Shown here: piece after piece, positions 7,273 to 39,518 of the stretch
Position numbering within the stretch: the first letter of the stretch is position 1
How the letters are laid out: each line of letters begins with the position of its first letter
NCBI GenBank assembly: GCA_017435525.1
Contig: JAFSEW010000041.1
Span: 1 to 39,710 of the forward strand
From: Oscillospiraceae bacterium
Lineage (GTDB): Bacteria > Bacillota > Clostridia > Oscillospirales > Oscillospiraceae
Direction: 5' to 3'
DNA: 39,710 nt
Translations under genes and position numbers: made by a program
Notes under the pieces: generated by a model
The model's input: only the letters and a program-made list of their open reading frames with translations
What the model was told of the DNA's origin: nothing
Databases searched by the model: none

Positions 7273-8541
7273 TTATGCCTCCTTCATCGGGTAAATCACA
7301 GACAGGCAGCTGCGCTGCCGGGTGACTACCCGGCGCAGAAATGCCTGCACTTCTTCTTTTTGAATACTCTGGTACAGTGCGGGGAATTGGGGATAATCAT
7401 ACCCGCTGAAATGATAGGCGCAGAGCCGGAAGCAGGTGGAATCGAAGCTGTCCAGCTCCCGAATCCGGCGGCCCAGGGCGCTGCGCTTCATCCGCAGGAA
7501 GTCCGCCTCCGGGATTCCCTGCCGCAGCAGCGTTTCCAGACCTGCCAGCACCGCTTCTTTCACCCCTTCGGGGTGATTGCTGTCGCCGGAGCAGGTGAGC
7601 ATCGCCATGCCGTCCACTGTTTCGAAGCCGCCGCCGAAGGAGGAGTCGATAAGCCCATCCTCATACATCTGCAGATACAGGGCTGAAGATTCTCCGAACA
7701 GGGCCTCCGCAGCCAGATCGCCGATGATCTCCTGCCGCACGGCAGCTTCCCCCTTGCCGGGGGCTTCGCACTTGAAGCCCAGCTGGAACATGGGCATTGC
7801 CACTTCCATGCAGGACTGCACCAGATTCTCCGGACAGTCCATCATTTCTTCAGGAATAGGCTGCTTGATGCCCACAGGCTTTCTTTCATCCCCCAGCACT
7901 TCCCGTGCCATGGCAGCCACAGCATCGGCATCCACATCACCCACCACGCACAGCACCATATTCTCCGGGGTGTAGAAGGCCCGGTGGCAGGTTTCCAGCA
8001 CCTGGGGGGTGATGCCCGCCAGGGTCTTACGGGTACCCAGAATGGTCTCCCGGATTCGGTGGTGGGGGTACATGGCTGCCATCAGCTGCTCAAACACCCG
8101 GCTGTCCGGGCTGTCGGCGGCCATATCGATCTCCTGACCGATGATGCCCTGCTCCTTGGCCACGCTTTCTTCCGTAAAATACGCCGTGGACACAAACTGC
8201 AGCAGCAGCTTCAGACAGGGCTCAAAATTCTCCGTGCAGGAGAAATAATAGGCGGTCATATCATAGCTGGTGAAGGCGTTGGGGTTGGCGCCCATGGCGG
8301 CAAAATCCGCCGACACTTCTCCCCAGGGCATATCGAACATCTTATGTTCCAGATAGTGGGCCACCCCCTGGGGTGCTTCGTAAGCCACGCCGTCCAGAGT
8401 AAAGCACCGGTGGATGGAACCGTAGTCCGTGACGAAATAGGCCAGCTTCTTCCGAAAGCCCGGCCTCGGCATCACCAGCACCGTCAGGCCGTTTGGCAGC
8501 ACCTGCCGGCAGACGGTTTCTTCCAATGCGGGATAATACAT
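7273..8541 (-). CDS. M16 zinc peptidase, YmfH type
   Basis: A 422-residue M16 (insulinase/pitrilysin) peptidase. The inverted zinc motif HYLEH is at residues 62-66, and the downstream glutamate ligand is in GQEIDM (about E137). These are intact, so this is the catalytically competent partner. In Bacillus the YmfF/YmfH pair is linked genetically to modification of EF-P; elsewhere such pairs process peptides. Its ATG shares one base with the stop of the upstream gene (TGATG), which indicates translational coupling and a heterodimer. The actual substrate cannot be read from the sequence. Confidence 0.85.
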   Translation of the reverse strand: MYYPALEETVCRQVLPNGLTVLVMPRPGFRKKLAYFVTDYGSIHRCFTLDGVAYEAPQGVAHYLEHKMFDMPWGEVSADFAAMGANPNAFTSYDMTAYYFSCTENFEPCLKLLLQFVSTAYFTEESVAKEQGIIGQEIDMAADSPDSRVFEQLMAAMYPHHRIRETILGTRKTLAGITPQVLETCHRAFYTPENMVLCVVGDVDADAVAAMAREVLGDERKPVGIKQPIPEEMMDCPENLVQSCMEVAMPMFQLGFKCEAPGKGEAAVRQEIIGDLAAEALFGESSALYLQMYEDGLIDSSFGGGFETVDGMAMLTCSGDSNHPEGVKEAVLAGLETLLRQGIPEADFLRMKRSALGRRIRELDSFDSTCFRLCAYHFSGYDYPQFPALYQSIQKEEVQAFLRRVVTRQRSCLSVIYPMKEA

Positions 8542-9806
8542 CAGCTCTGCACCCCCTTCAGGAAAAATACGGTGTGGGGCCGCAAGGTCTTTGCCGCTGC
8601 CACGATCTGCTCCAAAGTGGCTGCTTCCACCGCCCGGATATAGGTATCCGGGGTCAGGGGCAGGCCGCTGAGGGCGGCGGTGGCATAGTAGCCTTCCAGC
8701 GCCCCTGGAGAATCCTGGGTAGACAACAGGGAAGAACGCAGGGATTCCTTGGCTGCGTTCAGCTCTTCGGGGGTAATTTCACCCCGGCAGCAGGCATCCA
8801 GCTGGGCCAGCACACCCCGCTGCACCGCTTCTTTCATGCCGCTGTCGATACCTGCGGACACGGTCACAAGGCCCTTGGAGCCGTGGAAGCCGGAGCCGAT
8901 GGCATAGCACAGCGACTGCCGCTCCCGGATTTCCATAAAGAGCTTACTGGTCATGCCGCCGCCAAAAATATGGTTTAATAGCTGCATAGGCACAAACCCT
9001 GCATCCCGGATGGTGATATCGCTCACCAGACCCATGCACAGCTTGCCCTGATTCACATCCATCTGGCGGACGGTATCGCTTTCCGGGCCGGTACGCAGTG
9101 GGGACTGTTCCGGCAAGTTAACATAATTTCTGTCAATCCGGTCAAAGAGTTCTTTCAGCAGCGCTGCCACCTGCTCCTGGGGGGCGCTGCCCACATACAC
9201 CAGCTCCACCCGGCTTTCCCGGAGGATCTTTTGGTAATGGTCATACAGGTCCCGGGGCGTCACAGCCTGGGCATCGGCAATTTCACCCAGCCGGGGAATG
9301 CCGAAGGAATCTCCCTTGCACATGGTGCGGATCATCTGCTCCATGGCATAAGCCCGCTTGTCGTTGAGCTGGGATTCGATGGAAGCGATGAGATTGCGCT
9401 TTTCGCTTTCCACAAAATCTTCCCGGAAGCAGCCGTCCTCCAGCACAGGCTCCAGCAGCAGCTGGCCTACAAATTTCAGCATGGGCTCCAGAATGGCATC
9501 GCCCTCCAGGGCGAACCTGTCTTCCATAAAGCCGCAGTAGAAGCCGGTGGTCTGATAGTCGCCCACCCGGCGCACCAGGGTGCCGACGCTGGCACCGTAG
9601 AGGTCATCCAGCCGCAAAGTAATGGCCCGCAGATCGGGATATTCCCGGGTACCCCGCAGCAGCACCGCAGGCAGCAGCGCATTGCGGGATGCCTCCTCCC
9701 GGCACATGGGGCGCACCAGCTGCAGGCTCAGGCAGCCCTGCTTGAAGCGGCTGTCGGGGATGCAGCGCAGCCGGATTCCCGGCCCCAGAGAAAGGGTTTG
9801 GTTCAT
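8541..9806 (-). CDS. M16 peptidase-like subunit, YmfF type (probably non-catalytic)
   Basis: A 421-residue M16-fold protein with no HxxEH motif, as expected for the inactive partner in two-subunit M16 peptidases. The C-terminal M16 half shows the conserved LLNHIFGGGMTSKLFMEIRE and ERQSLCYAIGS segments. The start is the ATG at 9804-9806: AAAGGAG lies 7 bases upstream, while the ATG two codons earlier is only one base from that site. It is first gene of an operon with the YmfH-type peptidase and lgt. Confidence 0.8.
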   Translation of the reverse strand: MNQTLSLGPGIRLRCIPDSRFKQGCLSLQLVRPMCREEASRNALLPAVLLRGTREYPDLRAITLRLDDLYGASVGTLVRRVGDYQTTGFYCGFMEDRFALEGDAILEPMLKFVGQLLLEPVLEDGCFREDFVESEKRNLIASIESQLNDKRAYAMEQMIRTMCKGDSFGIPRLGEIADAQAVTPRDLYDHYQKILRESRVELVYVGSAPQEQVAALLKELFDRIDRNYVNLPEQSPLRTGPESDTVRQMDVNQGKLCMGLVSDITIRDAGFVPMQLLNHIFGGGMTSKLFMEIRERQSLCYAIGSGFHGSKGLVTVSAGIDSGMKEAVQRGVLAQLDACCRGEITPEELNAAKESLRSSLLSTQDSPGALEGYYATAALSGLPLTPDTYIRAVEAATLEQIVAAAKTLRPHTVFFLKGVQS

Positions 9807-9837
9807 GAACATGCTCCTTTTGCGAATAATTGGCTTC

Positions 9838-9866
9838 ATTATATATCAGTTTCCCCCAAATAGGAA
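9838..9866 (-). promoter_or_regulatory. Promoter of ymfF-ymfH-lgt
   Basis: Minus strand: TTCCTA (9861-9866), a 17-base spacer and TATAAT (9838-9843). Confidence 0.6.
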
Positions 9867-19506: not shown

Positions 19507-22041
19507 TTACGCCTGATAGTGCTTTACCATTTCCTTTTTGGCATTTTCCACTTCCTGCTGCAGCTCCCGGGCGCTCATGCGCAGTACGCCGCTGCGCAGG
19601 CTGCTCAGCTGCACCAGAGAATCGGAGGTTGCCACCCGGAGATTGTAGTTGGTGCCCACCTGACTTACCAGGGCTTCGATATAGGCATCCGCTGTCTCGC
19701 CTTCGGCGGTGTATACCACCTGAATATTGTGAAACTGCTCTTTCTTTCCGGGGCTGCCTTTGACCTTGTAGCCGTCAAACACCAGCACCAGGCGGCATTT
19801 CTTGAATCCCGCGTAGTTGGACAGGGCATCGCACAGGCTTCTTCTGGCGGCATCCAGATCGTGCTTCGCCGTTTCCGCCAGAGAATCCCAGGCGAAAATA
19901 ATATTGTAGCCATCCACGATCAGATATTGCTGCCGGGGTGGCCGGATGGTCAGCTTTTCCTCCGCAGGGCGGTTCTCCGGAGCTTTATACAGGGTGGTGG
20001 TAAGGTCGCCGAACTGCCTGCGCATGATCTCTTCCAATGCCTTGTCATCGGGCTGCAGATTCCGGGTAATCACCGCGGGCTTTGGCTTTAGGCCGCTTTC
20101 CAGGTGCATATAGTCCTTCACCCGGTTCCAGGGCACATGGAATCCGGCACCGTGATCGCAGAACACGGAATCCGGGGTGTTGGCGATGTCCGCCAGAGGA
20201 TCGTAGCCCATTTCCTCCACCACTTTTTCGGCGTTGTGGCAGGGGGCGTAGCCGTGCAGCGACAGCTGCAGCTGTCCTCTGCCCTGGGTGTAGGCCGCCA
20301 GCTGATCGGCGTAATCTCCCAGTTCCGAAGCAGGCACCTGGCCTTGCAAAGTGGAGGTATTGCCCACGGCTTCCGGGGCATCAAATTCGCCGCCCATGGC
20401 CCGAATATCCGTAATGGCCCGGCCGATCTGCTCTGTGGGCAGGGTCAGCCGGAAATCATACCAGGGTTCCAGCAGTACGCTTTTTGCCTGCATCAGGCCC
20501 TGGCGCACTGCCCGGTAGGTGGCCTGCCGGAAATCGCCGCCTTCGGTGTGCTTGATGTGGGCTCTGCCGATGAGAAGCGTGATCTTCATATCGGTGATGG
20601 GCGAGCCGGTGAGCACGCCCACATGGGTCTTTTCCAGCAGGTGCGTCAGCACCAGATTCTGATAGTGGGCTTCCAGCACATCCGCAGAGCACCGGGTGGA
20701 AACCACCAGACCACTGCCTTGAGGCAGGGGTTCCAGCAGCAGATGTACCTCCGCATAGTGGCGTAACGGCTCATAGTGACCCACGCCCTCCACCGTATCG
20801 GCAATGGTTTCCTTATAATAGATGCGGCCCTGATCCAGATTCACATCCAGAGAAAACCGCTGCTGTATCAAACTTCGCAGAATTTCCAGCTGCACCTTGC
20901 CCATGATCTGCACGAAGATCTGCTTCAGCCGGTCGTTCCACACCACATGCAGCTGGGGATCTTCCTCCTCCAACTGCCGCATTTTGGGCAGGAAGGTCAT
21001 AGGATCGGTGCCGGAAGGCAGGGCCACCCGGTAGGTCATAACCGGCTCCAGCACCGGTGCCGGGGCACCTGCTTCCCTGCCCAAGCCCTGGCCCGCCCAG
21101 GTGCCGGAAAGTCCCGTAACGGCCACAAGCATACCGGCCGTGGCCGTATCCACCGCCGTAAATTTTTCGCCGCTGTAAAGCCGCAGCTGCACGGCCTTTT
21201 CTTCCAGCTGCTCGTCCTTGGTATTTTGATAGGAAATGACACTGCGCACCGGCAGACTGCCGCCGGTGATTTTCAGCCAGGTAAGCCGGTTGCCCTGGGG
21301 GTCCCGGGAAATCTTATACACCCGGGCGCCGAAATCAGCGCCCCACTGCTGCCGGGGGGCATAGGTATCCAGCACATCCAGCAGTTCCTTCACGCCCTCC
21401 AGCTTCAATGCCGAACCGAAGCAGCAGGGGAACAGCTTCCGCTTCGCCACCAGGCCCCGGATATTGCCGGGGGTCACGGTGCCGGTTTCCAGATAGTTTT
21501 CCAGCAGCGCCTCATCGCATAGGGCCGCGGCTTCCGCAATTTCCTCTTCCGACCCGCCAAAATCCACGCAGCCGGTGCTCAAATTCTGCCGCAAAGAGGA
21601 AAGCAGCTTTTCCCGGTTTATACCGGGCAGATCCATTTTATTGATAAACAGCACCACCGGCACCTGGTATTTTTCCAGCAGCCGCCACAGAGTCAGCGTG
21701 TGGGCCTGCACCCCGTCGGTGCCGCTGATTACCAGCACCGCGCAGTCCAGCACAGGCATGGTGCGCTCCGCTTCCGCGGAAAAATCCGCGTGACCGGGGG
21801 TATCCACCAGGGTCACATCCAGATTTTCCGTGGTCAGCCGGGCCTGCTTGGAGAAAATGGTGATGCCCCTGGCCCGCTCCAGGGCATGGGTATCCAGAAA
21901 GGCATCCCGGTGATCTACCCGGCCCAAAGTTCGCCGGGCACCGGATACATAGAGCAGTGCCTCCGAAAGGGTGGTTTTCCCCGCGTCCACATGGGCCAGC
22001 AGGCCAGTACTGATATGAGGCTTTTTAGCCTGTTCTCCCAT
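19507..22041 (-). CDS. TetM/EF-G-like ribosomal GTPase fused to Rae1/YacP-type NYN endoribonuclease
   Basis: A single uninterrupted frame of 844 residues. Residues 1 to about 650 match ribosomal protection proteins such as TetM: G1 AHVDAGKTT (16-24), switch RGITI (58-62), G3 DTPGH (80-84), G4 NKMD (134-137), then domains II-V, including the domain IV-like FRLTLPTEQIGRAITDI. A linker of about 50 residues follows. Residues 704-844 match Rae1/YacP, the ribosome-associated A-site endoribonuclease of Bacillus: LIVDGYN, VLVFDGYKVKG, ETADAYIE, VATSD and RMSARELQQEVE. All acidic active-site positions are kept (D710, D756, E782, D785, D807). The start is the ATG at 22039-22041 behind AAGGGGGTG. TetM-like annotation would miss the nuclease. 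Tetracycline resistance is possible but is not shown. Confidence 0.88.
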   Translation of the reverse strand: MGEQAKKPHISTGLLAHVDAGKTTLSEALLYVSGARRTLGRVDHRDAFLDTHALERARGITIFSKQARLTTENLDVTLVDTPGHADFSAEAERTMPVLDCAVLVISGTDGVQAHTLTLWRLLEKYQVPVVLFINKMDLPGINREKLLSSLRQNLSTGCVDFGGSEEEIAEAAALCDEALLENYLETGTVTPGNIRGLVAKRKLFPCCFGSALKLEGVKELLDVLDTYAPRQQWGADFGARVYKISRDPQGNRLTWLKITGGSLPVRSVISYQNTKDEQLEEKAVQLRLYSGEKFTAVDTATAGMLVAVTGLSGTWAGQGLGREAGAPAPVLEPVMTYRVALPSGTDPMTFLPKMRQLEEEDPQLHVVWNDRLKQIFVQIMGKVQLEILRSLIQQRFSLDVNLDQGRIYYKETIADTVEGVGHYEPLRHYAEVHLLLEPLPQGSGLVVSTRCSADVLEAHYQNLVLTHLLEKTHVGVLTGSPITDMKITLLIGRAHIKHTEGGDFRQATYRAVRQGLMQAKSVLLEPWYDFRLTLPTEQIGRAITDIRAMGGEFDAPEAVGNTSTLQGQVPASELGDYADQLAAYTQGRGQLQLSLHGYAPCHNAEKVVEEMGYDPLADIANTPDSVFCDHGAGFHVPWNRVKDYMHLESGLKPKPAVITRNLQPDDKALEEIMRRQFGDLTTTLYKAPENRPAEEKLTIRPPRQQYLIVDGYNIIFAWDSLAETAKHDLDAARRSLCDALSNYAGFKKCRLVLVFDGYKVKGSPGKKEQFHNIQVVYTAEGETADAYIEALVSQVGTNYNLRVATSDSLVQLSSLRSGVLRMSARELQQEVENAKKEMVKHYQA

Positions 22042-22087
22042 GTCAGACACCCCCTTAAATGGTTTCATGCAGGGATTATAGCATGAA

Positions 22088-22119
22088 AAAGGGCTTTCGT
22101 CGATAGGGGAAAGCCCTTT
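22088..22119 (-). terminator. Attenuator-like terminator in the leader of the GTPase-nuclease gene
   Basis: On the minus strand AAAGGGCTTT (22119-22110) and AAAGCCCTTT (22097-22088) form a 10-base perfect stem followed by TTTTTC. It lies only 47 bases before the start codon, so it must be read through for expression from the upstream promoter. A TATAAT at 22075-22080 just beyond it could alternatively give a short direct transcript, but no good -35 is at the right distance. Confidence 0.7.
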
Positions 22120-22236
22120 GGGGGCAAAATTCTGATCTTGCCCGCCCATTGGAAGATTGTAAACACCGTTTGTTATCTTGAGTGGGCAGTGCTTTGATGG
22201 CAATGTCAAAACCGTGTATCGTGCCCTTTGTTGCAT

Positions 22237-23104: not shown

Positions 23105-24400
23105 TTAAATGACAGGAAGATCAACGGTTACGCAAAAGGTTCTTCCATTATTCCTTGCCTTGAACGCACCACCCATCTGAGTAATGACCCGCCTGCAGGT
23201 ATTAAGGCCAATGCCTGTGCTTTCCTTTTTGTCCCCATCCTGGCAAATCCCATTGCTTATGGAAAGAGAAACACAGTTATCCTTTTTCTGATAGGATATC
23301 CAAATGGTATCCTTGGGATCTGCATATTTTTGAAGATTAGAATACAGATTGTCCAGCGCCCGCTGCAGCAAATCGGTATTTGCCATAATTCTTCCCGATG
23401 TGGGTTCAAAACGCAGTTCTACATTCAGATCCTTACTTTCCAGAGAGTCGATATAGTCGGCCAAAATCTGTTGGAACAGTGTATCAGCCTCCGTCAGCTC
23501 CATATCTACAGTTTCCCACTCAGTAGCATATACCAGGAAATACTCAAAAAGCTGATCTGCCATGGTTTTGATTCGTAAAGTCTGGGCAATGCATTTGTGG
23601 ATCAGGTTGTGCATCTGTTCCTCGTTGGCATACTTCTTGCGTTCAACCAATTCCAAATAAGCAAGTAAGGAAGTGAGCGGTGTACGCAAGTCATGGGACA
23701 TAGCTGTAATCAATTCTGAATTTGCTGAACGCATCTGATTTTCTATTTCGTTATGCTTTTGAATCGATTGGCGCATTTGGTCAATTCCCAAAGCCAGTTC
23801 TCCCAGTTCATCATGGCCCCGTATTGTAACCGTATACTCCATTTGACCGCCGGACAAAATATCCAATTCCTGCCGAAGCTGCTTGATGTATTTGATTTTC
23901 TGATTGATCAGCAAAATAAAGCATAGCGAAAACCCAAGGAATGCGATCATTCCGGACAGGAACAGCAGCAGGTAATAGAATCCGTCGCCTGCGTAATAGT
24001 AGAGAAATGCGCGAACCTGCATATCCTCCTGAAGCGTTAGAAGATATTCGTTTTCCGGGTCTTCCATATCCGGATGAAATTCCTGTGCGGATGGTTCCCG
24101 CGTGACCTCGCCGGATTCATAAATCAACAGATCATCCTGATAAAGCGTAAGGTACACTTTTTCGCCCCGGTTGCACCAAACATTCAGCCTGCTTACGTTT
24201 TTCAGAGAGATTCCTTCTGTTTCCACATAGCTTTGCAGCTGCTGGAAATATCGGTCTGACATCTTCTGTGCAAAGGCATGGCCGTATACGGTTTTATCCA
24301 GAAACGAGTTCCCCAGCAGATAAACAGAGGCAAAGAGAATAGCGCCAACAAATAGCGACATCAGCACAGCGCAAAACAGCTGCCGTCTAAGTCCTGTCAT
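23105..24400 (-). CDS. Sensor histidine kinase (VanS/OmpR-partner type)
   Basis: A 431-residue membrane kinase. Two hydrophobic helices (near residues 8-30 and 145-170) bracket an extracytoplasmic domain of about 110 residues. A HAMP-like linker follows (LRQELDILSGGQMEYTVTI, HDELGELALGIDQMRQSI), then the phospho-acceptor H-box AMSHDLRTPLTSLLAYLE, the N-box RALDNLYSNLQKYA and a G-box STGIGLNTCRRVI. The start at 24400 follows the response regulator stop by one base. The ligand is unknown; the linked lipid and lipoprotein genes suggest an envelope signal. Confidence 0.88.
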   Translation of the reverse strand: MTGLRRQLFCAVLMSLFVGAILFASVYLLGNSFLDKTVYGHAFAQKMSDRYFQQLQSYVETEGISLKNVSRLNVWCNRGEKVYLTLYQDDLLIYESGEVTREPSAQEFHPDMEDPENEYLLTLQEDMQVRAFLYYYAGDGFYYLLLFLSGMIAFLGFSLCFILLINQKIKYIKQLRQELDILSGGQMEYTVTIRGHDELGELALGIDQMRQSIQKHNEIENQMRSANSELITAMSHDLRTPLTSLLAYLELVERKKYANEEQMHNLIHKCIAQTLRIKTMADQLFEYFLVYATEWETVDMELTEADTLFQQILADYIDSLESKDLNVELRFEPTSGRIMANTDLLQRALDNLYSNLQKYADPKDTIWISYQKKDNCVSLSISNGICQDGDKKESTGIGLNTCRRVITQMGGAFKARNNGRTFCVTVDLPVI

Positions 24401-24401
24401 T

Positions 24402-25097
24402 TTACTCAATACGATACCCCTTTCCCCATACTGTGCGGATGGTATGGCTATTTTGCGGATCATCGTGAAGTTTACGGCGGATATTGCGGATATGTACCAT
24501 TACATTGTTGTTGGAGGAATATGTGTACGGTTCATTCCAAACGATTTCATATATATTCTGCGCAGAGTACACCCGTTTTGGATGAGAAGCAAGAAGTAAT
24601 AAAATCCGGTATTCTATGTCTGTGAGAAAGACTTCTTCCCCATCCACTTTCACCTGGCAGCGGCTGGTATCGATTTCGATGTTTCCGCAGCAGTATATGG
24701 TTGTGCTCGCCTCTGCGGTTTTGGCCCCATACACATAGTATCTGCGCAGGATCGCCTTTACGCGGTTTGTCAGTTCACTATATGAAAATGGTTTTACCAG
24801 ATAATCGTCTCCTCCGGCACTGAATCCCAGCGTTTTGTCCGAATCCTGGGATTTGGCCGTCAAAAACAGAACAGGAACCGTATAGCGCTTTCTAATCTCT
24901 GCGCACACTGCATAACCGTTCATCTGCGGCATCATCACATCCAGAATCACAAGATCAACGGTATGGTCTATCTTCTCAAGCACTTCCTGTCCGCAAGAGG
25001 CTTCCACTGTTTCGTATCCTTCGCAGGTCAGCAATAATTGAAGCGCTTCTCTGATGTCGGATTCATCATCTGCAAATAAAATTCGTTTCTTTTCCAT
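24402..25097 (-). CDS. Response regulator, OmpR/VanR family
   Basis: A 231-residue two-domain regulator. The receiver (1-120) has the acidic pair D10-D11, the phospho-acceptor D53 in VILDVMMP, the T in FLTAK and the K in VKPF. The C-terminal winged helix (about 135-231) has LTDIEYRILLLLASHPKRVYS and VMVHIRNIRRKLHDDP with the final VWGKGYRIE. It is translationally joined to the sensor kinase. It is divergent to the lipid operon; TTCAGAAT-type tandem sites at the lipid operon, at the lipoprotein gene and after the kinase gene are good candidates for its binding sites. Confidence 0.92.
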   Translation of the reverse strand: MEKKRILFADDESDIREALQLLLTCEGYETVEASCGQEVLEKIDHTVDLVILDVMMPQMNGYAVCAEIRKRYTVPVLFLTAKSQDSDKTLGFSAGGDDYLVKPFSYSELTNRVKAILRRYYVYGAKTAEASTTIYCCGNIEIDTSRCQVKVDGEEVFLTDIEYRILLLLASHPKRVYSAQNIYEIVWNEPYTYSSNNNVMVHIRNIRRKLHDDPQNSHTIRTVWGKGYRIE

Positions 25098-33236: not shown

Positions 33237-33272
33237 GCCCAGCGCACCATATCATTTCAGGAGGTTGTTCCC

Positions 33273-35108
33273 ATGGCCAAAAAACTGGTTGCCGACCTGA
33301 TGGTGGATTACCTGGAACGCCGGGATGTGAAATACATCTTCGGCCTCTGCGGCCACACAGTCATCGGCATGCTGGACGCCCTGTCCAGAAGCAAGAAGAT
33401 CAAATATATCTCCAACCGCCACGAATCCGTGGCTTCCACCGCCGCCGATGGCTATGCCCGGCTGACCCACAAGGCATCCGTAGTCATGTGCCATCTGGGC
33501 CCCGGCCTGACCAATGTGCTCACCGGCGTGGCCAACGCCGCCTTTGACTCCATTCCCATGGTGGTCATCGCCGGCGATGTGCCGAGCTTCTATTTCGGCA
33601 AGCACCCCCATCAGGAAGTGAATATGCACGGCGACGCCACCCAGTACCGGATTCTGGAGCCGGTGGTGAAGCGGGCCTGGCGCATTGACGATCCGGAGTC
33701 CCTGCCAGACATTCTGGACAAGGCCTTCCGGCTGGCGGAATCCGGCCGCCCCGGCCCTGTGCTCATCGACATGCCCATGGACATGTTCTCCCGGGAAGTG
33801 GAGGAGGCCATCTGGGCAAGAACCTACCGCGACAGCAGCTTTACCTGCCGCCCCGCCATGGACCCCGACGCAGTGGAGGAAATGGCCCGGCTGCTTCTGG
33901 AAGCCAAAGCTCCGGTGCTTCACGCCGGCGGCGGCATCCTGCTGGCGCAGGCTTCCCGGGAGCTGGCTGATCTGGCGGAATTTCTGGATATCCCCGTATC
34001 CCGCACCCTCATGGGTCAGGGCTGCATCCCCGATACCCACCCCCTGATGATCGGCCAGACCGGCTTCTGGGGCACCGAATTCACCCACAGCCTCACCACC
34101 AAGGCCGATGTGATCCTGGGCCTTGGCACCCGGTTCGCCGAGGCGGACAGCTCCAGCTGGTACCAGGGTGTCACCTTCGACCCGGACCGCACCACATTCT
34201 TGCAGATCGACATCGACCCTGCGGAGATCGGCCGGAACTATCCTGTAAAGATCGGCGCCATTGCGGATCTGAAGATCGCCCTGAAGCAGCTGCTGGCAAA
34301 AATCAGGGAGCTCTGCCCCGAAGGCAGAAGCAACCCCGCCCTGCGGCAGCAGATCGCCCAGGCCAAAGCCGCCTTCAAAGCTTCCAACGAAGCCATCTCC
34401 ACCGATGACCGGTTCCCCATGACCCCCCAGCGGATCCTCCACGATGTGAAGGCCGTGATCCCCGAAGATGCCTGCATCTTCACCGATGTGGGCTGGAACA
34501 AGAATGGCGTTGCCCAGCAGTTTGACATCACCGTTCCCGGTGGCATCCACCATTCCTCCGGCCTTGCCACCATGGGCTTCGGCGCTTCTGCCGTGCTGGG
34601 CGGCAAGCTGGCTGCCCCGGATAAGATCTGCCTGACCCTCACCGGTGACGGCGGCTTCGGCGTGAATCCCACCTGCCTGGCCACCGCGGTGGAGCAGGGC
34701 ATCGCCTGCACCTGGGTGGTGATGAACAATTCCGCCTTCGGCACCATCGCAGGATTGGAAAATGCCAACTATCAGACCAAATTCGGCACCACCTTCCAAA
34801 CTCCCGACGGAGAAAGCTATTCCCCCCGCTGGGCGGATGTGGCCAAGGCCTACGGCGTGGAAGCCATCTGCGTGCAAAGCGCCGCGGAATTTAAGCCCGC
34901 CCTGGAAGCCGCCATGGCCGCCAACCGGGCAGGCCGCCCCTTCCTGGTGGAAGCCCCCATGGAAAACATCGCCGTGCCCACCCCCGGCTGCTGGAATATC
35001 AATGATATCTACCGCCCCAGCGACTATGTCAGCCAGGGCAAACTGGTAAAGCAGGAAGAAGGCCGCTGGCTGAAGCCCAGCCACGGCAATTCCCACAAAC
35101 CCAAGTAA
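33273..35108 (+). CDS. Thiamine-diphosphate-dependent enzyme (acetolactate synthase-like)
   Basis: A 611-residue enzyme of the acetolactate synthase/benzoylformate decarboxylase fold. The N-terminal pyrimidine domain has the catalytic glutamate in NRHES (E51). A central domain follows, and the pyrophosphate domain has GDGGFGVNPTCLATA (from 458) with the closing NN about 27 residues later. AGGAGG lies before the ATG. The family makes or breaks bonds next to a carbonyl (2-oxoacids, 2-hydroxyacyl-CoA, cyclic diones). The next gene is an acylating aldehyde dehydrogenase 15 bases on, so an aldehyde product handed to it is likely. It does not look like IolD, IlvB or Xsc on inspection. Confidence 0.82.
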   Translation: MAKKLVADLMVDYLERRDVKYIFGLCGHTVIGMLDALSRSKKIKYISNRHESVASTAADGYARLTHKASVVMCHLGPGLTNVLTGVANAAFDSIPMVVIAGDVPSFYFGKHPHQEVNMHGDATQYRILEPVVKRAWRIDDPESLPDILDKAFRLAESGRPGPVLIDMPMDMFSREVEEAIWARTYRDSSFTCRPAMDPDAVEEMARLLLEAKAPVLHAGGGILLAQASRELADLAEFLDIPVSRTLMGQGCIPDTHPLMIGQTGFWGTEFTHSLTTKADVILGLGTRFAEADSSSWYQGVTFDPDRTTFLQIDIDPAEIGRNYPVKIGAIADLKIALKQLLAKIRELCPEGRSNPALRQQIAQAKAAFKASNEAISTDDRFPMTPQRILHDVKAVIPEDACIFTDVGWNKNGVAQQFDITVPGGIHHSSGLATMGFGASAVLGGKLAAPDKICLTLTGDGGFGVNPTCLATAVEQGIACTWVVMNNSAFGTIAGLENANYQTKFGTTFQTPDGESYSPRWADVAKAYGVEAICVQSAAEFKPALEAAMAANRAGRPFLVEAPMENIAVPTPGCWNINDIYRPSDYVSQGKLVKQEEGRWLKPSHGNSHKPK

Positions 35109-35123
35109 GAAGGAGAGTACCCT

Positions 35124-36560
35124 ATGGCTAGAGAAATTACACCGGAAGAACTGGAAATGCTCGATGGCATCGTGGCCCGCGCCAGAGCCGCTGCCCACAT
35201 CATTGCCACCTATGACGAACCGAAGCTGAACCGGCTGTGCCAGGCTGTGGCCGCCGCCCTTTACGACCTGAAAACCTGGGGTCAGCTCTGCGACGAAGCC
35301 GTGGACGAGACCCGGCTGGGCGACAAGGTGACCAAGCGGGGCAAGCGCAACAAGATCAAGCTGATCCTGCGCGACTGCCTGCGCAGCAAGAGCGTTGGCA
35401 TCATTGAGGAAGACCCGGAGAAGGGTCTTGTGAAGTACGCCAAGCCCATCGGCGTCATTGCCACCCTGGTGCCCACCACCAACCCCTGCCTGACCCCTGC
35501 GGGCCAGATCCTCTACGCCATCAAGGCCCGGGATGTGCTGGTCTGCTCCCCCCACCCCAGAGCCAAGAACATCACCAACAAGTGCATTCAGATCGTCCGG
35601 GATGTGCTGGTGAGAGAGGGTGCCCCTGCGGATATTATCCAGGGCATTGAAAAGCCCTCCATCGCCGTGTCTCAGGAGCTGATGAAGCGCTGCGACCTGG
35701 TTATCGCCACCGGCGGCCGCCCCATGGTCAAATCCGCCTATTCCTCCGGCACCCCTGCCTACGGCTCCGGCGCCGGTAACGCCACGGTGATTATCGACAA
35801 CACCTGCAATACCCCCCAGCGTCTGGCAGAAGCTGCCATGAACTCCCGGATCTCCAAATGCTCCGACTTTGGCTCCGGCTGCTCCTGCGACGGCAACCTG
35901 GTGATCCACGAATCCATCTACGATCCCTTTGTGGAAGCCCTGGTGGCAGAAGGCGCCTACCTTGCCAATGCGGAAGAAGCCGAAAAGCTGAAAGCCGTCC
36001 TGTGGGATACCGAAGGTCACCGGCTGCCGGATACCGTGGCCGTCTGCCCCCAGGTGCTGGCAGAAAAGGCCGGCTTTACCATCCCTGCTGACCGGAAGTT
36101 CATCGCCGTCACCGGCGGCGGCATGGAAGGCATCGGCAAGGAGCATTTCTTCTCCGGTGAGAAGCTTACCACTTTGCTGACCCTCTTTAAGTACGAAGGG
36201 GAGTTCGAAAACGCGCTGGATATGATGCGGGCCATCTTTGAAGTGGGCGGCAAGGGCCATTCCTGCGGCATCTACTCCTTCGATGACGACCACATCCATC
36301 GCCTGGGCATGGCAGCCCCCGTCTCCCGGATCATGGTGCGCCAGCCCAACAACAAGGGCAACGCCGGCTCCCCCACCAACGGCATGCCCCCCACATCCTC
36401 CATGGGCTGCGGCACCTGGGGCGGCAACATCGTCTCCGAGAATATTACATTGAAGCACTACATGAACACCACCTGGGTGGCACGGCCCATCGCCATGGAC
36501 ATGCCCTCCAACGAAGACCTCTTCGGCGATTTCTGCAAGGCCGATCTGGATGAGGAATAA
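35124..36560 (+). CDS. Acylating aldehyde dehydrogenase (CoA-dependent, SauS/AdhE-like)
   Basis: A 478-residue aldehyde dehydrogenase of the acyl-CoA-forming group. Visible family segments are PIGVIATLVPTTNPC, the helix VVCSPHPRAKN-type stretch, GGRPMVKSAYSSGTPAYGSGAGN, the nucleophile region with three cysteines (C246, C253, C255 in SKCSDFGSGCSCDGN), and TSSMGCGTWGGN near the end. It would oxidise an aldehyde with NAD and CoA to an acyl-CoA. It resembles sulfoacetaldehyde dehydrogenases and the aldehyde domain of AdhE; which cysteine is catalytic is not clear, C253 or C255 being most likely. It ends the operon before a strong terminator. Confidence 0.85.
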   Translation: MAREITPEELEMLDGIVARARAAAHIIATYDEPKLNRLCQAVAAALYDLKTWGQLCDEAVDETRLGDKVTKRGKRNKIKLILRDCLRSKSVGIIEEDPEKGLVKYAKPIGVIATLVPTTNPCLTPAGQILYAIKARDVLVCSPHPRAKNITNKCIQIVRDVLVREGAPADIIQGIEKPSIAVSQELMKRCDLVIATGGRPMVKSAYSSGTPAYGSGAGNATVIIDNTCNTPQRLAEAAMNSRISKCSDFGSGCSCDGNLVIHESIYDPFVEALVAEGAYLANAEEAEKLKAVLWDTEGHRLPDTVAVCPQVLAEKAGFTIPADRKFIAVTGGGMEGIGKEHFFSGEKLTTLLTLFKYEGEFENALDMMRAIFEVGGKGHSCGIYSFDDDHIHRLGMAAPVSRIMVRQPNNKGNAGSPTNGMPPTSSMGCGTWGGNIVSENITLKHYMNTTWVARPIAMDMPSNEDLFGDFCKADLDEE

Positions 36561-36571
36561 TCCCAAGCCCC

Positions 36572-36605
36572 AACTGCACCAATGGCAAATGTCATTGGTG
36601 CAGTT
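36572..36605 (+). terminator. Intrinsic terminator of the catabolic operon
   Basis: A 13-base perfect stem (36572-36584 with 36593-36605), 8-base loop and a T-rich tail, 11 bases after the aldehyde dehydrogenase stop. Confidence 0.8.
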
Positions 36606-36625
36606 TAATTTCCGGCGTAACCCCG

Positions 36626-36654
36626 TTGCAAACAGACGGGATTTGTGCTACTCT
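36626..36654 (+). promoter_or_regulatory. Promoter of tdh-kbl
   Basis: TTGCAA (36626-36631), a 17-base spacer and TACTCT (36649-36654). The -10 is weak. Confidence 0.5.
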
Positions 36655-36688
36655 TTACATGATAATGAAACTTACAGGAGTGATTGCC

Positions 36689-37735
36689 ATGCAATATATG
36701 GACGCCATTGTAAAAGCTGCCCCGGGCGTAGGTCTGGAGCTTCGGAAAGTGCCTGTGCCGGAGCCCGGCCCCGGCGAAGTGCTGATTAAGGTGCATAAAA
36801 CCGCCATCTGCGGCACCGATGTGCATATCTACAACTGGGACCCCTGGGCCACCGAACATATCAAGCCCCCCATGACCATCGGCCATGAATATGTGGGCGA
36901 GATCGCCGCCATGGGTGAAGGCGTTACCGGCCTGCATCTGGGCCAGCGTGTTTCCGGCGAAGGCCACATTACCTGCCACCACTGCCGCAACTGTCACAAC
37001 GGCAACATCCAGTGGTGCAAGGATACCAAATCCGTGGGCGTGGATCGGGACGGCGCCTTTGCTGAGTATGTGTGCATCCCCCAGGAGAATGTGATTCTCA
37101 TCGACGAGAGCCTGCCGGAGGATGTGGTGGCGTTCTTTGATGCCTTCGGCAACGCCACCCACACCGCTTTGATGTTCCCCCTCATCGGTGAGGATGTGCT
37201 GATTACCGGTGCCGGTCCCATCGGCATCATTGCCGCCGCCGTGTGCAAGCACGCAGGTGCCCGCCGTGTGGTGATTACCGACATCAATGACTGCCGCCTG
37301 GAACTGGCTAAAAAGATGGGCGTGGATGCCGCCGTGAATACCGCCCGGGAGCATCTGCCCCAGATCATGAAGGAGCAGGGTCTGGTGGAAGGCTTCGATG
37401 TGGGTCTGGAAATGTCCGGCAACGGCGCGGCCCTGCAGCAGATGATCGGCGTTATGCGCAACGGCGGCAAGATTGCCCTGCTGGGCATCTCCAACAAGCC
37501 GGTGCCCATGGACATGAACACCATTATTACCAAGGGTCTGACCCTGCAGGGTATCTATGGCCGCCACCTGGACAACTGGCACCAGATGAGCTACATGGTA
37601 CAGGGCGGCCTGGATGTGAGCCCCGTAATCACCCACCGGTTCCACTACACCGATTTCCAGAAGGGCTTTGAAGCCATGAATTCCGGCAAGTCCGGCAAGG
37701 TCGTGCTGGACTGGACTGCCAAGAAGGAGGACTAA
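36689..37735 (+). CDS. tdh: L-threonine 3-dehydrogenase
   Basis: A 348-residue zinc alcohol dehydrogenase. It oxidises threonine with NAD to 2-amino-3-oxobutyrate. The catalytic zinc ligands are in AICGTDVHIYNWDPW and GHEYVGE; the structural zinc motif C-x2-C-x2-C-x7-C is CHHCRNC followed by NIQWC. The Rossmann loop is ITGAGPIGIIAAAV. The YNWDPWATEHIKPPM stretch is diagnostic for Tdh. The ATG at 36689 follows ACAGGAG. The next gene starts three bases after the stop and encodes the enzyme for its product. Confidence 0.93.
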   Translation: MQYMDAIVKAAPGVGLELRKVPVPEPGPGEVLIKVHKTAICGTDVHIYNWDPWATEHIKPPMTIGHEYVGEIAAMGEGVTGLHLGQRVSGEGHITCHHCRNCHNGNIQWCKDTKSVGVDRDGAFAEYVCIPQENVILIDESLPEDVVAFFDAFGNATHTALMFPLIGEDVLITGAGPIGIIAAAVCKHAGARRVVITDINDCRLELAKKMGVDAAVNTAREHLPQIMKEQGLVEGFDVGLEMSGNGAALQQMIGVMRNGGKIALLGISNKPVPMDMNTIITKGLTLQGIYGRHLDNWHQMSYMVQGGLDVSPVITHRFHYTDFQKGFEAMNSGKSGKVVLDWTAKKED

Positions 37736-37738
37736 ACC

Positions 37739-38926
37739 ATGAAATCTGCACTGTCTGCCATCTCTGCTGAGCTGGATGCCATCCGGGAAGCCGGTACCTG
37801 GCGGGAAGAGCGCATTATCACCACCCCCCAGTATTCCCGCATCGACACCACTGCCAAGCCCGGCGTTGTGAATTTCTGCGCCAACAACTATCTGGGCCTG
37901 TCCACCCATCCGGCGCTGATGCAGGCCGCCAAGGAAAGCTACGATCAGTGGGGCTTCGGTCTTTCCTCCGTTCGCTTCATCTGCGGCACCCAGCAGATCC
38001 ATAAGGATCTGGAAAAGAAGATCTCCGGCTTTTTGGGCATGGACGATGCCATTCTCTATTCCTCCTGCTTCGATGCCAACGGCGGCCTCTTTGAGACCCT
38101 GCTGGGCAAGGAGGACGCGGTGATCTCCGACGAGCTGAACCACGCTTCCATCATCGACGGCGTGCGCCTTTGCAAGGCCATGCGCTACCGCTATAAGAAC
38201 AACAACATGGATGACCTGCGCGCTCAGCTGGCAGCCGCCAGAGAAGCCGGTGCCAGGAAGATCCTCATTGCCACCGACGGCGTGTTCTCCATGGACGGCT
38301 ACATCGCCAACCTTCAGGGCATCTGCGACCTGGCTGACGAATTCGATGCCCTGGTGATGGTGGATGACAGCCACGCCGTGGGCTTTATGGGCGAGCACGG
38401 CAAGGGCACCCACGAATTCTGCGGCGTCATGGATCGGGTGGACATCATCACCGGCACCTTCGGTAAGGCTCTGGGCGGCGCTTCCGGCGGCTACACCGCA
38501 GCCCGTCAGCCCATCGTGGATCTGCTGCGTCAGCGCAGCCGCCCCTACCTGTTCTCCAACACCGTGGCTCCCGCCATCTGCGCCGCCACCATCCGCACCA
38601 TCGAGCTGCTGGAAGAATCCACCGCTCTGCGAGATAAAGTCCACGCCAACGCCCGGTATTTCCGCAGTGAAATGGAAAAGCTGGGCTTCGACCTGCTGCC
38701 CGGCGAGCATCCCATCGTGCCCGTGATGCTCTACGATCCCAAGGTGGCTCACGAATTTGCCAAGCGGATGCTGGAAAAGGGCGTGTATGTGGTGGCCTTC
38801 TGCTACCCTGTTGTGCCCAAGGGCAAGGACCGCATCCGCACCCAGATCTCCGCCGGCCACACCAAGGAAGATATCGACCTGGCTGTAAAGGCCTTCGGCG
38901 AAGTGAAGAAAGAAATGGGTCTGTAA
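37739..38926 (+). CDS. kbl: Glycine C-acetyltransferase (2-amino-3-ketobutyrate CoA ligase)
   Basis: A 395-residue PLP enzyme of the alpha-oxoamine synthase family. It cleaves 2-amino-3-oxobutyrate with CoA to glycine and acetyl-CoA. Family features are [39 protein letters not shown] (PLP aspartate and histidine) and the PLP lysine in [14 protein letters not shown]. Its ribosome site AAGGAGG lies in the last codons of tdh. With tdh it forms the complete two-step threonine-to-glycine route. Confidence 0.95.
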
Positions 38927-38932
38927 ACTGCT

Positions 38933-39508
38933 ATGAACAAGAAAATTCGTTGGATCACCCAAACCGCCGTGATGCTGGCGCTGCTGGTAACGCTGCAGTG
39001 GGTCGGCTCCTTTATTCCGGAGCAGATGACCAAGCAGCTGATCACCGGCACCATGGTCAATTGCGTGCTGGCTGTGACCGTTCTGCTGGTGGGGCTCAGC
39101 AGCGGCATCACCGTGGCGCTGATCTCCCCTGTTTGCGCATTTTTGTTTGGCATCGCCCCCAATTTTATCACCGTGGCTCCCATTATGGCAGGTAACTGCT
39201 GCTATGTGGCGCTGCTGCACCTGATCGTGGGTAAGACCCGCAAATTCGGCTGGCAGCAGATCGTTGCTTTGGTCAGCGCTGCTGTAGTGAAGTTCGGCGT
39301 GCTGTATCTGCTGGTGGTGAAGCTGATCTGCGGCATCGCCTCCGATGCCCTGCTGGGTAAGAAGCTGGGCGAAATCGTGGTGCTGGCACCGCCCATGCTG
39401 AAGATGCTGCCCACCATGTTTGCATGGCCTCAGCTGGTCACCGCCCTGTGTGGCGGCATCATTGCCCTGGCCATTCTCCCGGTACTGCGCAAGGCGCTGC
39501 ATAAGTAA
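38933..39508 (+). CDS. ECF transporter S component-like membrane protein
   Basis: A 191-residue protein with about six hydrophobic helices. The pattern of short loops and small-residue helices (GLSSGITVALISPVCAFLFGIAP, VAPIMAGNCCYVALLHLIVG, ALCGGIIALAILPVLRKAL) fits substrate-binding S components of energy-coupling-factor importers, which bind vitamins or related small molecules. No ATPase or T subunit is near; S components often share these. It starts six bases after kbl with only a weak ribosome site, so translation is probably coupled. A ligand linked to threonine/glycine metabolism is possible but unproven. Confidence 0.7.
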   Translation: MNKKIRWITQTAVMLALLVTLQWVGSFIPEQMTKQLITGTMVNCVLAVTVLLVGLSSGITVALISPVCAFLFGIAPNFITVAPIMAGNCCYVALLHLIVGKTRKFGWQQIVALVSAAVVKFGVLYLLVVKLICGIASDALLGKKLGEIVVLAPPMLKMLPTMFAWPQLVTALCGGIIALAILPVLRKALHK

Positions 39509-39518
39509 TTGCATACAG

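Follow-up and report, generated by a model that had tools for sequence, protein, structure and literature searches.

An EF-G-like GTPase joined to a Rae1-type nuclease domain in clostridia: a candidate fused form of Rae1

EF-G-like factors occupy the factor site of the ribosome and place their domain IV in its decoding region. The tetracycline ribosomal protection proteins Tet(M), Tet(O), Tet(W) and Tet(S) are multidomain GTPases of this build, and Pro509 of TetM is the residue that the available text of PMC7456112 reports as overlapping tetracycline. Rae1 (YacP) of Bacillus subtilis is a free protein and an A-site endoribonuclease, whose access may rise with stalling according to the accessible part of PMC6613710, and A-site cutting releases ribosomes for tmRNA-SmpB, as stated in an excerpt of PMC12320835. 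The two types of module have been described in one chain, since the available portion of Atkinson 2015 (PMC4342817) reports 'Tet' proteins that bear an NYN domain of the YacP-like kind in ten clostridial species. Here we analyse a protein of this architecture that is encoded at 19507..22041 on the minus strand of contig JAFSEW010000041.1 (assembly GCA_017435525.1, Oscillospiraceae bacterium, a gut bacterium), the 39,710 nucleotides of which form the window. On balance, and with appreciable reserve, we consider it Rae1, the endoribonuclease that depends on ribosomes, in fused form, that is, a GTPase-delivered mRNA endonuclease feeding ribosome rescue.

The 2015 study, in the portion available, files such proteins under Tet and proposes a role for the RNase in resistance, whereas our comparison suggests a GTPase subfamily of its own and an NYN domain that replaces rae1. 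The initial annotation of the window was aware of no characterised protein of this architecture; our literature search, from the scope of which most subscription papers were excluded, found no functional study of the fusion, but the architecture itself has been in print since 2015. As far as that search goes, a domain IV tip unlike that of Tet(M), unfused sister proteins with a shared extension and the evidence for a fusion standing in for rae1 are new.

Domain architecture of the fusion protein

The gene lies in a minus-strand open frame (19507-22236) of 909 codons with zero internal stops. Translation probably starts at the ATG at 22041, chosen because a ribosome-binding site (AAGGGGGTG, 22048..22056, minus strand, read directly) stands 7 nucleotides 5' of it and a promoter-like site fits the same choice, and it yields a protein of 844 amino acids (residues 66-909 when counted along the longest open frame) with the same coordinates as initially annotated. 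Residue numbers given here follow the 909-residue frame, from which 65 is subtracted to number the 844-residue protein; the previously highlighted D710 and D756 are thereby D775 and D821. An assembly frameshift or chance fusion was considered and rejected, since the frame is intact, fusions at 67-70% identity were found on six contigs from metagenome-assembled genomes (MAGs), each assembled separately, and 13/13 near-complete congeners (at least 90% complete) carry a fused-size frame of 843-1013 amino acids.

The nuclease half (residues 772-908; 19513..19923, minus strand) matches Pfam NYN_YacP (PF05991) at 3e-45, with 154 bits against a cut-off of 24.6, and matches the solved B. subtilis YacP (PDB 5mq8 and 5mq9) at about 3e-22 over 132 residues. 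All four conserved aspartates of Rae1/YacP are present, namely D775 (19912-19914), D821 (19774-19776), D850 (19687-19689) and D872 (19621-19623, all minus strand), and are invariant in the 79/79 fused and 28/28 standalone NYN rows aligned. The initial annotation is thus borne out in reading one intact frame with a GTPase and a Rae1-type nuclease bearing the conserved acidic residues, and none of the three outcomes that it named as fatal to this (no NYN_YacP match over threshold, a junction error, absence from related genomes) was found. The fusion departs from Rae1/YacP in that its NYN domain follows a GTPase and lacks the C-terminal tail: the window match ends at profile position 139-142 of 166, leaving off the last ~24 positions. 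Among the matches listed, 51/90 fused NYN domains end at position 155 or earlier and 38/90 reach at least position 160, whereas 86/88 standalone NYN proteins do so (the exceptions are in G160 and G266). The missing tail would weaken the description of the window NYN as a full Rae1, but not the suggestion that it works like Rae1, and we infer that the tail was lost since the GTPase makes it unnecessary.

The GTPase half shows the features of the EF2/EF-G family. Pfam places, over cut-offs and in order, the G domain (GTP_EFTU, residues 72-294, 2e-51; 21355..22023), EFG_III, domain IV (EFG_IV, residues 470-585, 2e-18; 20482..20829) and domain V (EFG_C, residues 587-669, 2e-18; 20230..20478), all on the minus strand, while domain II (EF-G_D2) is narrowly below its cut-off (24.2 vs 27). 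The motifs AHVDAGKTT, RGITI, DTPGH and NKMD are present, as the G motifs are in the Tet proteins, and the domain order and predicted fold resemble those of EF-G and EF-G2. By overall similarity the GTPase appears nearly equidistant from Tet and EF-G, because its best NCBIfam match, tet_protect (NF012153), reaches 406 bits, about half of the 775-bit cut-off, and its solved-structure matches are led by EF-G with TetO a close second. Of the EF-G models, the best elongation factor G model scores 341 bits and TIGR00484 scores 278.6 bits (equivalog cut-off 659.4). Identity is about 30% to TetM and to Tet(M/O/W/S), whereas those share 67-80% with Tet(M), and 27-29% to two usable EF-G-like rows, the comparison excluding rows L014, L026 and L055, for which the wrong open frame had been taken.

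Conservation is highest in domain IV: across 16 full-length rows, 48/116 of its positions (41%) are conserved at 95% or more, compared to 24% for the G domain, 17% for the NYN domain and 4% for the linker. Within its tip loop (AHIKHTEGGDFR, residues 559-570; 20527..20562, minus strand), K562 stands in the TetM Pro509 column, where lysine is found in 44/48 fused and 20/21 unfused proteins, followed by an invariant His and Thr, and proline in the four Tet rows; the loop sequence KHTEGGDFR likewise replaces that of EF-G. Since domain IV is the most conserved domain and carries Lys-His-Thr at its tip, the part predicted to reach the decoding site thus appears to be under strong constraint, yet built unlike that of TetM. 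Domain V is followed by an extension of ~55 residues (661-715; 20092..20256, minus strand; C666...SVFCxHGAG...W...MH in the alignment), in which C666, D683, S690, C693, G696, W703 and H711 are nearly invariant. The extension is common to the unfused relatives, forming their end, and is missing in all four Tet proteins of the comparison, which also lack a nuclease. A metal site within it would be consistent with C666 (47/48 fused, 21/21 unfused) and with C693 and H711 (each 45/48 and 21/21), but H695 is Lys in 14/21 unfused proteins.

The halves are joined by a linker (residues 719-770; 19927..20082, minus strand) that is 52-115 amino acids long with a median of 68 in 76 distinct cases. It is poorly modelled, with low confidence, in keeping with a tether, and includes a short conserved helix (residues 731-743; 20008-20046) with I737 in 43/46, R740 in 42/46, Phe or Tyr at 742 in 46/46 and G743 in 45/46 rows, which come mostly from the genus. 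While a structure model from the single sequence was useless (predicted local distance difference test, pLDDT, 36.7), a 16-row model was fair (pLDDT 79; predicted template modelling score, pTM, 0.58), and at this pTM the placement of the NYN domain relative to the GTPase is not fixed by the model.

Distribution, relatives and the absence of separate rae1

The GTPase-NYN architecture is common in clostridia. Among 60 genomes searched, the window's own included, 33 have NYN_YacP, in 31 fused-size frames and two partial ones (498 and 271 amino acids). In the class sample (292 genomes plus the window's own), fusions are present in 103/292 genomes, comprising 96 frames of at least 780 amino acids, all NYN-positive, and 7 cut or interrupted copies, one of which (G228) is deduced from parts lying on separate contigs, two in number. 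NYN_YacP exceeds its cut-off in 190/292 genomes and the GTPase with extension is found at 1e-60 in 122; the GTPase is unfused in 20 genomes, with G259 counted there on the basis of a broken frame (293 amino acids), and the NYN is standalone in 88. Frame lengths are two-peaked, with standalone proteins of 160-216 amino acids plus one of 342 (G342) and fused ones mostly of 840-950; frames were added for 29 genomes, 27 of them with 160-197 amino acids, together with that of G342 and a 19-position fragment in G317, which was dropped. In the phylum sample, the GTPase is found at 1e-50 in 13/199 genomes including the window's, as 12 fused-size frames and one unfused frame (651 amino acids). Overall, the fusion is retained across 24 family groups.

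Genomes that carry the fusion almost never carry a separate rae1, a relationship that the initial annotation had proposed to survey. A fused and a standalone NYN occur together in 1 genome (G340) vs about 31 expected if they were independent (Fisher p 1e-19, uncorrected for kinship). Of the family groups, 18 have just the fused form, 25 have just the standalone form and 6 are mixed. The sigH locus, inspected in eight fused genomes besides G340, points in the same direction: in G081, G177, G247, G294 and G347, rlmB adjoins sigH with no rae1 between them, whereas rae1 lies between rlmB and sigH in G340 and also in G163 and G202, whose NYN is standalone and whose GTPase is unfused; rlmB was unrecognised in G223, G192 and G329, which are therefore uninformative. 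Because exclusion is nearly perfect and rae1 is gone from the rlmB-sigH slot in five fused genomes, the fusion behaves as the lineage's form of Rae1 and, judged from gene content, seems to stand in for the separate gene. We note that in G247 the fused gene (L222:1783-4440) is ~3.5 kb downstream of sigH, near the slot vacated by rae1, and that it is distant from sigH in G081, G294, G347, G223 and G192. A second NYN_YacP-like match of 21 bits, covering positions 3-49 in frames of 163-165 amino acids, is present in three genomes of one genus (G177, G230 and G264; for example G177:C1:2323953-2324090), and these weak sub-cut-off matches reflect either a distant NYN-type protein or chance.

A GTPase tree of 48 fused, 21 unfused, four Tet and 9/53 EF-G-like rows, the last serving as root and TetQ, OtrA and TetB(P) not being included, unites all 69 fused and unfused rows in one clade (support 99), with Tet(M/O/W/S) in another (100). 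The unfused relatives, from clostridia and from Ligilactobacillus salivarius plasmids, have the same domains and extension, the L. salivarius protein (L125) being about 50% identical, and the 21 unfused loci end 0-12 residues after the extension with no linker and no NYN. One genome, G163, has two unfused paralogues (L159 and L160) together with its separate rae1. In the NYN tree, which samples 54/78 fused NYN domains, a branch with support 94 separates all 54, along with two rows labelled standalone, L205 and L204, from the rest. The former is a cut fused copy, and the latter (L204:2943-3590, genome G197) is a real standalone protein of 216 amino acids within the fused clade, possibly a detached copy of a fused NYN. 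The GTPase tree, a quick one, placed some fused rows, few in number, beneath the unfused clade; however, constraining the fused rows plus L125 to one clade gave a tree 16.6 log units better than the free one (p of the approximately unbiased test, p-AU, 0.70), and holding all unfused rows together gave one 1.9 log units better (p-AU 0.53). A single origin of the fusion is thus not rejected by these alignments and, with neither constraint rejected, these trees allow either order of fusion and loss.

Proposed function and alternatives

Joining the two halves most simply suggests a nuclease that a GTPase brings to ribosomes or keeps there. We propose that, on a paused ribosome, the EF-G-like GTPase docks at the factor site, where its domain IV would reach into the empty A site, and that the tethered NYN domain would then cut the mRNA within the A site or just beside it, so that the ribosome could be freed via the ordinary tmRNA-SmpB route. 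Ribosome binding, GTP use, the mRNA substrate, delivery, cleavage and the order of events are what we infer here. The rescue route exists in the genus, SmpB being found in 12/12 congeners searched of the 13 near-complete ones.

Several observations weigh against this proposal. Domain IV and the NYN domain cannot share the A site, and for this reason a hand-over after GTP hydrolysis, or a cut beside the A site, would be expected. In the window's own 77%-complete MAG, SmpB was not found and tmRNA matches are sub-cut-off. The linker helix, by a loose pattern, is present in 58/76 linkers and absent in 18/76, and no general neighbour gene was found among 18 fusion loci from other contigs. The parts do not clearly travel together when separate: an unfused GTPase is accompanied by a separate rae1 in 13/20 genomes, vs 87/189 fusion-free genomes (p 0.10), and co-occurrence of the parts was accordingly rejected as a line of support. 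Finally, 102/292 class genomes have no NYN_YacP over the cut-off, so that the function is dispensable.

The alternative that survives best, although we regard it as unlikely, is that the protein protects or resets ribosomes blocked in some other way, by another drug, a stress state or hibernation, with the NYN domain acting on rRNA or tRNA, a substrate suggestion found in the available text of PMC4342817. The strongly conserved tip loop, unlike those of TetM and EF-G, may read another A-site ligand, and NYN_YacP is lacking altogether from 7/20 genomes whose GTPase is unfused, which indicates that the GTPase is useful by itself. Yet the studied member of the nuclease family cuts mRNA, according to the accessible part of its description, and no sign of drug-induced attenuation is seen upstream of the gene.

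Tetracycline protection, with the NYN domain adding RNase activity to resistance as suggested in print (PMC4342817, in the part available), is in our estimation improbable. The best NCBIfam match is indeed a tetracycline model that outscores those of EF-G, relatives are named as Tet proteins in public records, two named relatives are on plasmid-filed records, and the clade is sister to Tet(M/O/W/S), a position partly forced by rooting, as otherwise just EF-G-like outgroup rows are present. These points are countered by the sub-cut-off score, the low identity, the lead of EF-G among structures, the lysine at the tip and the presence of the gene in every near-complete congener. Moreover, relatives L125-L127 have no resistance call, whereas all four tet loci have one, and if the promoter-like site is used there is no room for a leader peptide, unlike in the tet(M) record. 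We therefore rejected Tet(M)-type resistance on score, tip residue and distribution across congeners, and the initial description of the GTPase as TetM-like is not supported in the drug-displacing sense, given its identity, its clade apart from Tet(M/O/W/S) and its lysine in the Pro509 column. The same annotation was right that a tetracycline label would hide the nuclease: a plasmid-filed fusion of Agathobacter rectalis (L127:5001-7802) is named TetM/TetW/TetO/TetS resistance protein, which is a misleading name.

That the halves work apart, the fusion merely co-expressing a housekeeping GTPase and Rae1 with a cut or passive linker, would fit the variable, mostly poorly conserved linker and the existence of unfused GTPases, but is improbable given the retention of the fusion across family groups, the linker helix conserved in most (albeit genus-biased) rows and the tail so often missing from fused but not from standalone NYN domains. 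A defence system was rejected as well, as the PADLOC models gave no real match to the fusion protein, with LeoBC alone at E 0.0045 and 14 bits within the G domain.

Returning to the fused Rae1 that we favour, a more specific form can be put forward tentatively, as a possibility and not as our expectation. The protein may be a one-protein no-go-decay machine, in which an unnamed GTPase subfamily, marked by the KHTEGGDFR tip as its A-site probe and by the extension, would sense stalled ribosomes via the empty A site and hand the Rae1 nuclease onto the exposed codon.

Gene context and implications

Upstream of the gene, a promoter-like site (TCGACG-17 nt-TATAAT; 22075..22103, minus strand) matches the consensus at 10/12 positions, with TG before the -10 element, and is identified by this match alone. 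As the region has four such sites vs a shuffle mean of 2.7 (standard deviation 1.7), the match is not above chance and the scan is weak evidence. A leader or attenuator was rejected, since an Rfam search of the window returned zero matches and the promoter-like site, if used, leaves no room for one.

Downstream, the gene is followed by a PsiE-like gene; the short frame on its upstream side has no Pfam match. An operon partner was rejected, recurrent neighbours being common to 3-4 of 18 loci at most, mostly in close relatives. Elsewhere in the window, YfmH and YfmF family proteins are encoded at 7273-8541 and 8541-9839 (minus strand), for which the NCBIfam name is EF-P 5-aminopentanol-modification associated. 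A B. subtilis efp mutant is suppressed by loss of Rae1 (PMC6613710, in the part available), although a functional link of the window's YfmH and YfmF to the fusion would be conjecture. A response regulator and sensor kinase at 23105-25097 (minus strand) are closest to VanR/VanS models but far under their cut-offs. Open frames of 1104 and 969 amino acids at 33252-36566 and 36605-39514 (minus strand) have no Pfam match and are shadow frames, because they lie opposite plus-strand genes that match Pfam families (TPP enzyme, aldehyde dehydrogenase, alcohol dehydrogenase, aminotransferase and ECF transporter).

Carriage by phages was also considered. Two loci were found in IMG/VR, and the one read (L232:1-2181) is an unfused GTPase-plus-extension gene that opens the contig, starting at its end, with a lysin-like gene adjoining by eye. 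It is probably the host flank of a prophage, and phage carriage was rejected.

As a natural covalent fusion, the protein gives access to the question of how nucleases of the Rae1 type gain the A site, and it bears on whether any GTPase escorts an mRNA-cutting nuclease to bacterial ribosomes. For resistance surveys it matters that a gene frequent in gut clostridia can be listed as tetracycline resistance against its sequence. If the no-go-decay form of our proposal is true, the fusion would represent, in bacteria and within one chain, a counterpart to ribosome rescue that is assisted by a GTPase and coupled to cutting by an endonuclease, and in about a third of the sampled class genomes it would have taken the place of free Rae1.
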